DNA from: Maribacter ulvicola
GTDB taxonomy: Bacteria > Bacteroidota > Bacteroidia > Flavobacteriales > Flavobacteriaceae
Direction of reading: 5' to 3'
Length of the DNA stretch: 64,000 nt
Assembly (NCBI RefSeq): GCF_900155985.1
Contig: NZ_FTMA01000011.1
Coordinates: forward strand, 1 to 64,000
A program made the translations under genes and the position numbers. Of the stretch, positions 48,033 through 50,265 are shown piece after piece (positions within the stretch are counted from its first letter, which is position 1; every line of letters starts with the position of its first letter). The notes beneath the pieces are model-generated. The model saw only the letters and a program-made list of their open reading frames with translations. It did no database searches and was not told the DNA's origin.

Positions 48033-49430
48033 TTAAATGTCTTCAGCTATTTCTAATGCCTTGGTCAAAGCGCCTAGTTTATTGTATGTTTCTTGTAATT
48101 CACTTTCAGGGTTTGATGCGGCGACCAATCCGGCGCCAGCCTGATAGTGTAATTTGTGATTTTTACTTAAAAAAGTTCTGATCATTATAGCATGATTGAA
48201 GTTCCCGGAAAAATCCATAAAACCTATAGCACCACCGTAATAACCACGGCTGGTTTTTTCATATTTTTCAATGAGTTGCATAGCCATGTGCTTTGGTGCA
48301 CCACTTAACGTACCTGCAGGGAAAGTGTCTGCTACCACTTTCATGGTTGGAATATCACTTTTCTTCATTCCGGTTACCTTAGAAACTAAGTGTATAACAT
48401 GAGAGAAAAACTGAACTTCTCTATAGTTTTCTACTTGTACAACGCTACCATTTCTACTAAGGTCGTTACGGGCAAGATCCACTAACATTACATGTTCACT
48501 GTTTTCTTTATTGTCCGTCTTCAGTTCTTTGGCAAGTTGTGCATCTTGTTCATCGTTTCCGGTTCTTTTAAATGTACCGGCAATAGGGTGAATTTCAGCT
48601 TTACCTTCGCTGACGATCAGTTGCGCTTCTGGAGAACTACCAAATATTTTAAAATCCCCATAATCAAAATAGAATAAGTATGGAGAAGGATTTACAGAAC
48701 GCAAAGCTCTATACACATTAAACTCATCACCTTTAAAACCTTGTGAAAAGCGACGGCTTAAGACCAACTGAAATACATCGCCACGTTGACAGTGTTTTTT
48801 AGCTAATTCTACATGCGCTCTATATTCTGAATCTTCTAAATTAGATTCTCTATCCCCTTCTATTTTGAAATTATAGGTAGCGAAGTTTCTAATACTTAAA
48901 AGTTGCTCTAATTCAGGTATGTTGTTTTCGGTATTGTAACAATGAGCAAAAAGGTAGGCTTCATTCTTATAATGATCAATGGCTATGATGTTTTGATAAA
49001 CGGCATAGTAAATATCCGGTATGCGAACAGAGTCATCTTTAACAGTTATATCTATATCTTCAAAATAACGAATGGCATCATAGGCCATATAGCCAAACAT
49101 ACCATTAATAATAAATTTATAGTCATTATTATCTGCCTTAAAGGTTTTACTAAAGGTGTCTATAATATCTACAACGTTTATCTCTGGTGTAATTGGAGTT
49201 TCTTCAATAACCCCATCAGGAAATTGTTTAACAATAATTTCATTTTCCACTTTAATAGAAGCAATAGGATTGCAACATATGTATGAAAAACTATTATTAT
49301 TAGCGTGATAGTCACTACTTTCTAATAAAATGCTATTAGGAAAACGGTCTCTTATTTTTAAATAAACGCTAACCGGCGTCATTGTGTCGGCAAGAATTTT
49401 TTTATGAAATGTCTTAAATTGATAGGTCAT
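48033..49430 (-). CDS. trpE: anthranilate synthase component I
   Basis: 465 residues. Chorismate-utilising enzyme with IAGTFKRTG, ELKTDNKENSEHVMLVDLAR and GAPKHMAMQLI motifs. The N-terminal SILLESSDY contains the LLES feedback site for tryptophan, so allosteric inhibition is expected. It is the first structural gene behind the attenuator at 49441-49562. Confidence 0.97.
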   Translation of the reverse strand: MTYQFKTFHKKILADTMTPVSVYLKIRDRFPNSILLESSDYHANNNSFSYICCNPIASIKVENEIIVKQFPDGVIEETPITPEINVVDIIDTFSKTFKADNNDYKFIINGMFGYMAYDAIRYFEDIDITVKDDSVRIPDIYYAVYQNIIAIDHYKNEAYLFAHCYNTENNIPELEQLLSIRNFATYNFKIEGDRESNLEDSEYRAHVELAKKHCQRGDVFQLVLSRRFSQGFKGDEFNVYRALRSVNPSPYLFYFDYGDFKIFGSSPEAQLIVSEGKAEIHPIAGTFKRTGNDEQDAQLAKELKTDNKENSEHVMLVDLARNDLSRNGSVVQVENYREVQFFSHVIHLVSKVTGMKKSDIPTMKVVADTFPAGTLSGAPKHMAMQLIEKYEKTSRGYYGGAIGFMDFSGNFNHAIMIRTFLSKNHKLHYQAGAGLVAASNPESELQETYNKLGALTKALEIAEDI

Positions 49431-49440
49431 AGATACTTTT

Positions 49441-49476
49441 ATAAAATAAAGAAGGCTTGTCGTGATGACAAGCCTT
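49441..49476 (-). terminator. trp attenuator terminator (region 3:4)
   Basis: On the minus strand AAGGCTTGTC (49476-49467) pairs perfectly with GACAAGCCTT (49461-49452), a 10-bp stem with loop ATCAC, followed by CTTTATTTTAT. The hairpin ends 11 bases before the trpE ATG. Its left arm and loop also pair with the leader's region 2 at 49511-49499, so the two structures exclude one another. Confidence 0.88.
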
Positions 49477-49498
49477 TATATAGTTTTACTACAATGAT

Positions 49499-49511
49499 GC
49501 TTTGCTCACGA
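49499..49511 (-). promoter_or_regulatory. trp antiterminator, region 2
   Basis: TCGTGAGCAAAGC pairs with GCTTGTCATCACGA (49473-49460): 12 bp including one uninterrupted run of 6, with three single-base bulges. Region 2 includes the last codons of the leader peptide (TCG TGA), so a ribosome reaching the stop would cover it and permit the terminator. Confidence 0.8.
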
Positions 49512-49562
49512 TGTTTTTCGTAAGTTGTTCCACCACCAAGAATTTGCGATTAAATTTTTCAT
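49506..49562 (-). CDS. trpL: trp operon leader peptide with three tandem Trp codons
   Basis: 18 codons: MKNLIANSWWWNNLRKTS. Codons 9-11 (49538-49530) are TGG TGG TGG. A stretch of three Trp codons is very unlikely by chance directly before trpE. The ATG follows the TATATTTG element by about six bases, so the leader is nearly leaderless, with no Shine-Dalgarno. When Trp is scarce a ribosome stalls on WWW, leaving region 2 (49511-49499) free to pair with region 3 and prevent the terminator; when Trp is plentiful the ribosome reaches the stop inside region 2 and the terminator forms. A second ATG in another frame at 49568 reads the TGGs as Leu-Val-Val and is rejected. Confidence 0.9.
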   Translation of the reverse strand: MKNLIANSWWWNNLRKTS

Positions 49563-49569
49563 TGAGCAT

Positions 49570-49600
49570 CAAATATAAAAAGGAAATTTAAACTATCAAA
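49570..49600 (-). promoter_or_regulatory. promoter of the trp operon
   Basis: On the minus strand TTTG (49600-49597), a 19-base spacer and TATATTTG (49577-49570), an exact match to the Bacteroidota -33/-7 consensus. Transcription would start near 49566-49563, within a few bases of the leader ATG. Confidence 0.85.
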
Positions 49601-49683: not shown

Positions 49684-50265
49684 TTATAATGCTAGATCTA
49701 CCACTAAATCAAAATCATCATAGATAGCTTTATCGCCTAGGTCGTCAAAGAAGCTTCCAGAACCATATTTAATATCAAATTTAGTTCTATCAATCTTGAT
49801 AGTGGCAGTTGCTTTATTTTCAAACATAGAAACAACAAGTGTTACAGGTTTTGTAATACCTTTAATAGTTAAGTTTCCGGTTACGGTATATGAGTTATTG
49901 TTCATTGATTTTACAGAGGTAAATACCAATTTAGAGGTAGGGTTGTTTTCTACCCCAAAGAAATCTGCAGACTGTAAGTGTCCTTCTAATTTTTCTTTTC
50001 CTTTACCAGCTTCTAGGTCGTTAACAGTTATTGAAGTCATATCAACAACAAATTCACCGCCAGTTAAATTTTTGCCGTTCATTTCTAAATGACCAGACTT
50101 TAGGTTAATACTGCCATAATGGGATCCAGTTACTTTATACCCTTTCCATGTAACGGTGCTTTCGCTGACCTTTACTTCTTTTTTCTCTCCGTCAATAGGG
50201 GTAGATGCGGTTGCTGTAAGACCGAATACGGCAACGAATACTAAACTTAATAATGATTTTTTCAT
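49684..50265 (-). CDS. secreted YceI family protein
   Basis: 193 residues. A signal peptide (about 1-20) precedes a YceI lipocalin-like beta barrel. Motifs: VSESTVTWKGYKVTG, GHLEMNGKNLTGGEFVVDM and FDIKYGSGSFFDDLGDKAI. The fold binds isoprenoid or lipid ligands. It lies 30 bases after the nitroreductase stop, so it probably belongs to the marR operon. Confidence 0.92.
   Translation of the reverse strand: MKKSLLSLVFVAVFGLTATASTPIDGEKKEVKVSESTVTWKGYKVTGSHYGSINLKSGHLEMNGKNLTGGEFVVDMTSITVNDLEAGKGKEKLEGHLQSADFFGVENNPTSKLVFTSVKSMNNNSYTVTGNLTIKGITKPVTLVVSMFENKATATIKIDRTKFDIKYGSGSFFDDLGDKAIYDDFDLVVDLAL

Follow-up and report, generated by a model that had tools for sequence, protein, structure and literature searches.

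Results

The window analysed in this study is a stretch of 64,000 nucleotides from Maribacter ulvicola (contig NZ_FTMA01000011.1), and the features described below lie on its minus strand, at 49600-49441 and in the flanks. A full trp operon is located downstream, with trpE at 49430-48033 (ATG at 49430) followed by trpG, trpD, trpC, trpF, trpB and trpA at 48031-42972. Upstream, an intrinsic terminator at 49652-49620 ends the preceding YceI-family gene (49684-50265), and the trp unit is therefore separate. The TrpE of the window shared 95% identity with the best named TrpE, and the five best of the 586 confirmed matches were all from Maribacter.

Direct reading of the sequence revealed a TTTG element at -33 (49600-49597), a spacer of 19 nt, and the -7 box TATATTTG (49577-49570), which has the form TAnnTTTG and was also supported by the gap data of relatives. 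Seven nucleotides after the box, the ATG at 49562 opens a leader ORF of 18 codons, MKNLIANSWWWNNLRKTS*, that spans 49562-49506 and stops with TGA at 49508-49506. Three tandem Trp codons (TGG three times, 49538-49530) constitute the putative stall site and overlap the 5' arm of an outer stem. A first-pass annotation, made from the letters alone, had listed the TTTG-N19-box promoter, the 18-codon ORF and the Trp codons, and the coordinates that it gave were borne out. The box position known from Flavobacterium psychrophilum predicts a transcription start region at 49567-49563, near 49565, and thus a 5' UTR of about 3 nt.

The folding analysis placed the outer stem between GUGGUG (49536-49531) and CAUCAU (49499-49494). 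Inside it, S1, CUUACGA (49524-49518), is the 5' arm of an anti-antiterminator that was recognized by folding and comparison, and S2, UCGUGAG (49511-49505), is the antiterminator segment that was recognized by comparison and harbors the leader stop. S3, UCACGA (49465-49460), is the partner of S2; some of it belongs to the terminator loop, and its other two bases belong to the 3' arm of the terminator. The perfect 10-bp terminator hairpin before the trpE ATG, AAGGCUUGUC/GACAAGCCUU (49476-49452), was borne out at -14.7 kcal/mol (z -7.5, none of 200 shuffles as good), and it is followed by the U-rich tail CUUUAUUUUAU (49451-49441), which is interrupted in this Maribacter element. The antiterminator had previously been drawn as 12 bp with three bulges; the pairing at the leader stop was retained, while that drawing was replaced by UCGUGA (49511-49506) with UCACGA (49465-49460) and AAGC (49502-49499) with GCUU (49473-49470), separated by an internal loop. 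The hairpin between S1 and S2 (CUUACGA/UCGUGAG, 49524-49518/49511-49505), which is the third element of the switch, was absent from the first-pass annotation.

The hairpin ends 21 nt before the trpE AUG. This short distance, found in the window and in several relatives, together with the interrupted U-tail in Maribacter, might suggest that the hairpin blocks initiation at trpE and that a stalled ribosome opens it, so that translation rather than transcription would be controlled. However, the GACAAGC core and trpE were 21 to 77 nt apart in the relatives listed (24 nt in the window by the same measure), in eight loci the terminator pattern started 405-491 nt ahead of the TrpE match, and many relatives had a clean U-run after the hairpin. 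Control of trpE translation is accordingly considered quite improbable.

The covariance model of the Bacteroid-trp family, RF01692, matched 49582-49467 over its full length (model positions 1-131) with 45.1 bits and an E value of 7e-4 in a 1-kb search. The curated gathering score of this family is 49 bits, which is a database threshold and not a biological feature; because the locus falls under it, a whole-window Rfam scan at curated cut-offs returned tRNA families only. As Rfam would omit the locus by its own score alone, it was filed through orthology to members over the cut-off, since the orthologous leader before trpE exceeded the cut-off in 23 of 36 genomes of the genus. Judged from its sequence, the window element is a homologue of RF01692, and it is located directly upstream of trp genes, as in the family. 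In the alignment to the model, several non-standard pairs were marked in the model stems; in free folding, an outer stem that covers the Trp codons formed, together with an inner hairpin, at places similar to those stems. The model appears to be a poor fit to this lineage. Moreover, it ends inside the 5' arm of the terminator, and therefore S2:S3 and the terminator lie outside it.

RF01692 was detected in 30 of the 36 genus genomes (23 over the cut-off). Two larger searches used stricter filters, which lose weak matches: the family sample of 149 genomes gave matches in 109, of which 94 exceeded the cut-off, and a phylum sample of 296 genomes gave matches in 30 (28 of the same family, one of another family of the order and one of another order of the class). 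Four of the six genus genomes lacking a match had a close trpE, and the leader was present in all four; the remaining two, which were 82-83% complete, gave distant trpE matches only. The first-pass annotation had staked its reading on conservation in close relatives, and the leader was indeed found before a close trpE in 34 of the 36 genus genomes. A TrpE match starting at residue 1 followed all 34 leaders, and one from or near residue 1 was present in 106 of 108 family loci (the exceptions being L033 and L057). In one of the 34, genome G161, the WWW codons and the ATG are in different reading frames, and trpE is broken as well, with 15 stops. At the settings used, the RF01692 search missed four of the 34 genus leaders (L262-L265).

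In the named set, which comprises the best 80 of 586 confirmed matches and hence the nearest relatives only, TGGTGG followed by the GGCYTRTC hairpin was found in 80 of 80 loci; this set shares species with the G-handle set, and the two are not independent. In the Muricauda/Flagellimonas relatives L308, L309, L314, L315, L327, L328 and L349, the trp terminator pattern starts 405-435 nt before the TrpE match rather than a few tens of nucleotides before it, with an extra stretch between the attenuator and trpE. A few loci were retrieved twice (e.g., L053 and L120). The first parser read 144 of 165 loci, and its 21 failures were left out of the statistics on 127 distinct elements given below. When these 21 were inspected by eye, a WW leader was seen in 17; in L048, L087 and L099 it was present but began at a codon other than ATG, and L033, at a contig end, yielded nothing. 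The E value of the 1-kb search and this wide conservation place the element far beyond chance.

The leader ORF with tandem codons that characterizes a ribosome-mediated attenuator was thus present, and it was strongly conserved: three consecutive Trp codons were found in 124 of the 127 elements and two in the other three. In 126 of the 127, the best position for S2 was 17-19 nt downstream of WWW, with ties resolved in favor of 18, and the end of the stop codon fell anywhere from 9 to 30 nt after WWW, with 1, 1, 15, 5, 2, 81, 1 and 21 rows at 9, 12, 15, 18, 21, 24, 27 and 30 nt, respectively. What stays nearly constant in these sequences is how far S2 lies from the stall site, wherever the stop falls. 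Given the general footprint size of a ribosome, S2 would remain at least partly covered by one positioned at these stops. A structured region preceding a biosynthetic operon might also harbor a ligand riboswitch, a T-box or a TRAP-type protein site that controls the terminator, with the WWW ORF being incidental. The conservation of the Trp codons at a near-constant distance from S2, and the finding that only tRNA families reach the Rfam cut-off in the window, argue against such a site, which appears extremely unlikely.

The anti-antiterminator and the mutually exclusive antiterminator and terminator were found by sequence and folding, with S2:S3 based mostly on conservation. The S1:S2 hairpin of the window reached -6.7 kcal/mol (z -4.7, one of 200 shuffles as good). 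In 126 of the 127 elements, the S1-S2 stretch folded better than it did with shuffled S1, the mean z being -2.3, and 124 had three or more of five S2 bases paired. All six bases of S2 UCGUGA paired with UCACGA at an offset of 18 or 19 in 109 of 127 elements; among the other 18, three paired fully at offset 17, L086 did so at 15, and 14 had fewer pairs. When S3 was re-dealt among the 127 rows, 731 of 762 cells were paired against a shuffle mean of 730.1, a value reached by 52 of 500 shuffles. This control was uninformative because S2:S3 is nearly invariant, and most of the support for S2:S3 is thus conservation and not covariation.

The informative cases for S2:S3 are the outliers. In L086, S1 (UUGCGA), S2 (UCGCAA) and S3 (UUGCGA) have all changed together, and L065 and L070, rows with altered S2 and terminator, carry GUGAGA:UCUCAC. 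By eye, L109 and L166 show wholly different yet matching S2/S3 segments, namely CCGUAAAGU:ACUUAACGG with eight of nine pairs in L109 and CAAAGUCUU:AAGACUUUG in L166, where S2 is nearer, at about 13 nt; a clear S2:S3 match was not seen by eye in L108. The terminator arms read GGCTTGTC/GACAAGCC in 107 elements, GGCTTGTC/GACAGGCC in 14 and GGCTTATC/GATAAGCC in 6 of the 127, counted with a pattern that admitted only such arms. A two-sided change, GGCUUAUC/GAUAAGCC, was present in 6 of the 127, and more two-sided variants were seen by eye among rows outside this count.

With S1 covered and the 3' arm of the terminator absent, the leader RNA of the window folded into GUGA:UCAC and AAGC:GCUU at -11.6 kcal/mol; the last two UCGUGA:UCACGA pairs were lacking because the folded stretch ended before their partner bases. 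In a longer stretch that included the 3' arm, the terminator won at -20.1 kcal/mol. Because the completed terminator is more stable than the antiterminator, antitermination would have to be kinetic.

The TAnnTTTG box of F. psychrophilum spans positions -12 to -5 (PMC9723704). By this measure, a box-to-ATG gap of 4 nt would correspond to a leaderless RNA, 5 nt to a 5' UTR of 1 nt and 7 nt to one of 3 nt. The gap was never below 4 although 0-3 was allowed, in both the 144 parsed loci of 165 (ATG nearest WWW and no lower limit, with some plainly wrong box choices, e.g., in L018, L056 and L128) and 71 named loci. In the genus, it was 5-7 nt in 33 of 33 intact leaders, where L128 was counted by its TATATTTA box, which the gap rule had passed over. 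In the family (n = 109), under a rule that required at least 4 nt, it was 4-8 in 34 loci (L018 and L056 among them being doubtful), 9-12 in 14 and 14-22 in 58, with no box in two and one locus unparsed. In the named set, it was 4-8 in 70 of 71 parsed loci (19 in Aquimarina) and, by eye, in eight of the other nine (30 in Pareuzebyella, L305), giving 78 of the best 80 named loci of 586 confirmed matches, with a mode of 5 (51 of 78). For 78 of the 80 nearest named relatives, the predicted RNA start is therefore 0-4 nt away from the leader AUG, most often 1 nt.

The attenuation reading would also be compatible with transcription from further upstream and a normal 5' UTR. The start site position is a prediction, and a sigma-70-like match exists at 49614-49585; six such matches occurred in a 501-base stretch, against 3.0 expected. 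In contrast, a TTTG element preceded the -7 box by 19 nt in most of 76 distinct box-anchored relatives (95, 95 and 72% for the three T positions and 82% for G), and the lower limit of 4 nt on the gap, found in both the 144 and the 71 loci, likewise favors a start set by the box. An upstream start is thus rather unlikely. The -7 box itself reads TAT(A/C)TTTG in these 76 promoters; its fixed letters were demanded by the search pattern, and TTTG was not.

Short gaps clustered on a TrpE tree, with 14 changes against a shuffled mean of 27.7 (none of 500 shuffles as low), and at least three changes of gap class were forced. This tree was built from partial TrpE (106 rows, 126 columns) and has weak support; its labels were set by hand, L018 as long and L056 left out, and G044 and G018, with very long branches and an odd letter make-up, were probably misread. 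From these sequences, the near-leaderless start is predicted to be a lineage-wide trait of this marine branch of Flavobacteriaceae and is the less expected part of the attenuator.

A second leader, with HHH, precedes hisG in the genus (L169-L180, from 13 genomes searched), and in 12 of 12 loci its box, TACTTTTA or TACTTTTG, lies 7 nt before the ATG. In the genome of the window, the hisG locus L180 carries the leader ORF MKNRTTHHHFHIHAQAR with HHH. In the loci shown, a ACCCGTTTG...CAAACGGGT hairpin and a T-rich tail follow the his leader. Outside the genus, 30 family loci were inspected, 26 with a His-rich leader, and gaps of 7 or 8 were found in L224, L227, L232, L235 and L236. Short his and short trp gaps agreed by genome in 16 of 21 cases, a comparison in which the trp boxes of L018 and L056 are doubtful and an incorrect upstream ATG had been used for the his gaps of L236 and L239, which left their class unchanged. 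Furthermore, a Phe/Tyr-rich leader, MTKQYFWNGFYFYFFFKRGTGLL or a close variant, was present before pheA in eight of nine genus loci examined (L181-L184 and L186-L189; two G161 pieces were left out of the count). No TAnnTTT(G/A) box was found within 29 nt before the ATG in these eight loci, and a near-leaderless start was therefore rejected as a general property of amino-acid leaders in the genus.

In 379 kb of the organism's own genome (16 stretches and the window), 285 ORFs of 120 codons or more were examined for an exact box ahead of the most upstream ATG, which need not be the true start. The gap was 4-8 nt in 7 of them, 0-1 nt in 2, 9-13 nt in 1 and 14-23 nt in 22. The near-leaderless mode thus looks like a minority start mode that is not confined to attenuators, and the proposal that such starts are peculiar to attenuators in this genome was unsupported. 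The gap is two-peaked in this sample, with 7 ORFs at 4-8 nt, one at 9-15 nt and 22 at 16-23 nt, which suggests two start modes in this organism.

Discussion

The data presented here indicate that the leader before trpE is homologous to RF01692 and very probably acts by ribosome-mediated transcription attenuation. This reading, first proposed in the first-pass annotation, fits the Trp codons, the stop on the antiterminator segment, the three mutually exclusive hairpins and the place before trpE, and it is further consistent with the conservation of the anatomy, the folding of S1-S2 beyond shuffles, the few compensatory changes and the near-constant spacing. We infer the start site, stalling, termination and response to tryptophan as follows. 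Transcription would start a few bases before the leader AUG or at it. When charged tRNA-Trp is short, a ribosome would stall on the three UGG codons, open the outer stem and cover S1; S2 would then be free to pair with S3 before the 3' arm of the terminator emerges, and RNA polymerase would read into trpE. When tryptophan is plentiful, the ribosome would reach the stop on S2 and the terminator would form. If the leader is untranslated, S1:S2 and the outer stem would form, which would lead to default termination. The same classical logic of trp attenuation is indicated by sequence to be widespread in Flavobacteriaceae.

The start of the leader had also been described as unusual, for two reasons. 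Only the near-leaderless part, which is a prediction, is unusual; the lack of a Shine-Dalgarno sequence is no oddity, as this is normal in Bacteroidota (PMC9723704). Leaderless mRNAs form a small minority in the phylum: they account for 5.5% in F. psychrophilum (PMC9723704), and about 3.7% of 5' UTRs are under 10 nt in B. thetaiotaomicron. No leaderless attenuator or leader peptide of this phylum appeared among the titles and abstract openings of the openly licensed papers listed, which is weak evidence of novelty. More speculatively, in the Maribacter-Zobellia-Muricauda-Arenibacter-Eudoraea group the promoter and the leader AUG of trp (and also of his in Maribacter) may be locked together, such that the first ribosome binds a 5'-terminal AUG as it leaves RNA polymerase; we regard this as a tentative possibility. 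If it is true, the lock between promoter and AUG would replace the pause hairpin in keeping ribosome and polymerase in step, without Shine-Dalgarno initiation, and attenuation would be sensitive to whatever governs initiation at the 5' end. Should the start be measured as near-leaderless, these leaders would offer a naturally occurring and conserved system in which to test how initiation at a 5'-end AUG is coupled to regulation.

With respect to known systems, the trp attenuator of E. coli (Rfam Trp_leader) is leadered and starts at a Shine-Dalgarno sequence. The element described here shares with it three mutually exclusive hairpins, tandem Trp codons and a stop beside segment 2, and differs in that the core S2 pairing involves the loop of the terminator and two of its 3'-arm bases.

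This type of attenuator is already described for the phylum (PMC2864571, PMC6414381, PMC9723704). Bacteroid-trp (RF01692) is listed in Table 1 of Weinberg 2010 (PMC2864571), and the element shares with this family the phylum, the place before trp genes and the leader with Trp codons, while its outer stem and inner hairpin, as freely folded, lie at places similar to the stems of the model. A 2019 paper placed Bacteroid-trp before trp in F. psychrophilum and likened it to the E. coli leader (PMC6414381), and the 2021 transcriptome of that species gave strong clues of leader-peptide attenuation before amino-acid operons, with structured elements before pheA and hisG being named (PMC9723704). The element is thus not new as a kind and is an ordinary, well-supported homologue of a known attenuator family. 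In the genus labeled g127, which was taken to be Flavobacterium, most leaders lie 16-20 nt after the box, i.e., behind an ordinary 5' UTR. A parallel in start mode is the alphaproteobacterial trpL of Sinorhizobium meliloti, which is leaderless, its RNA beginning at the leader ATG (PMC7298713); that 5' end is experimental, whereas the start 0-4 nt from the AUG described here is predicted from the promoter.
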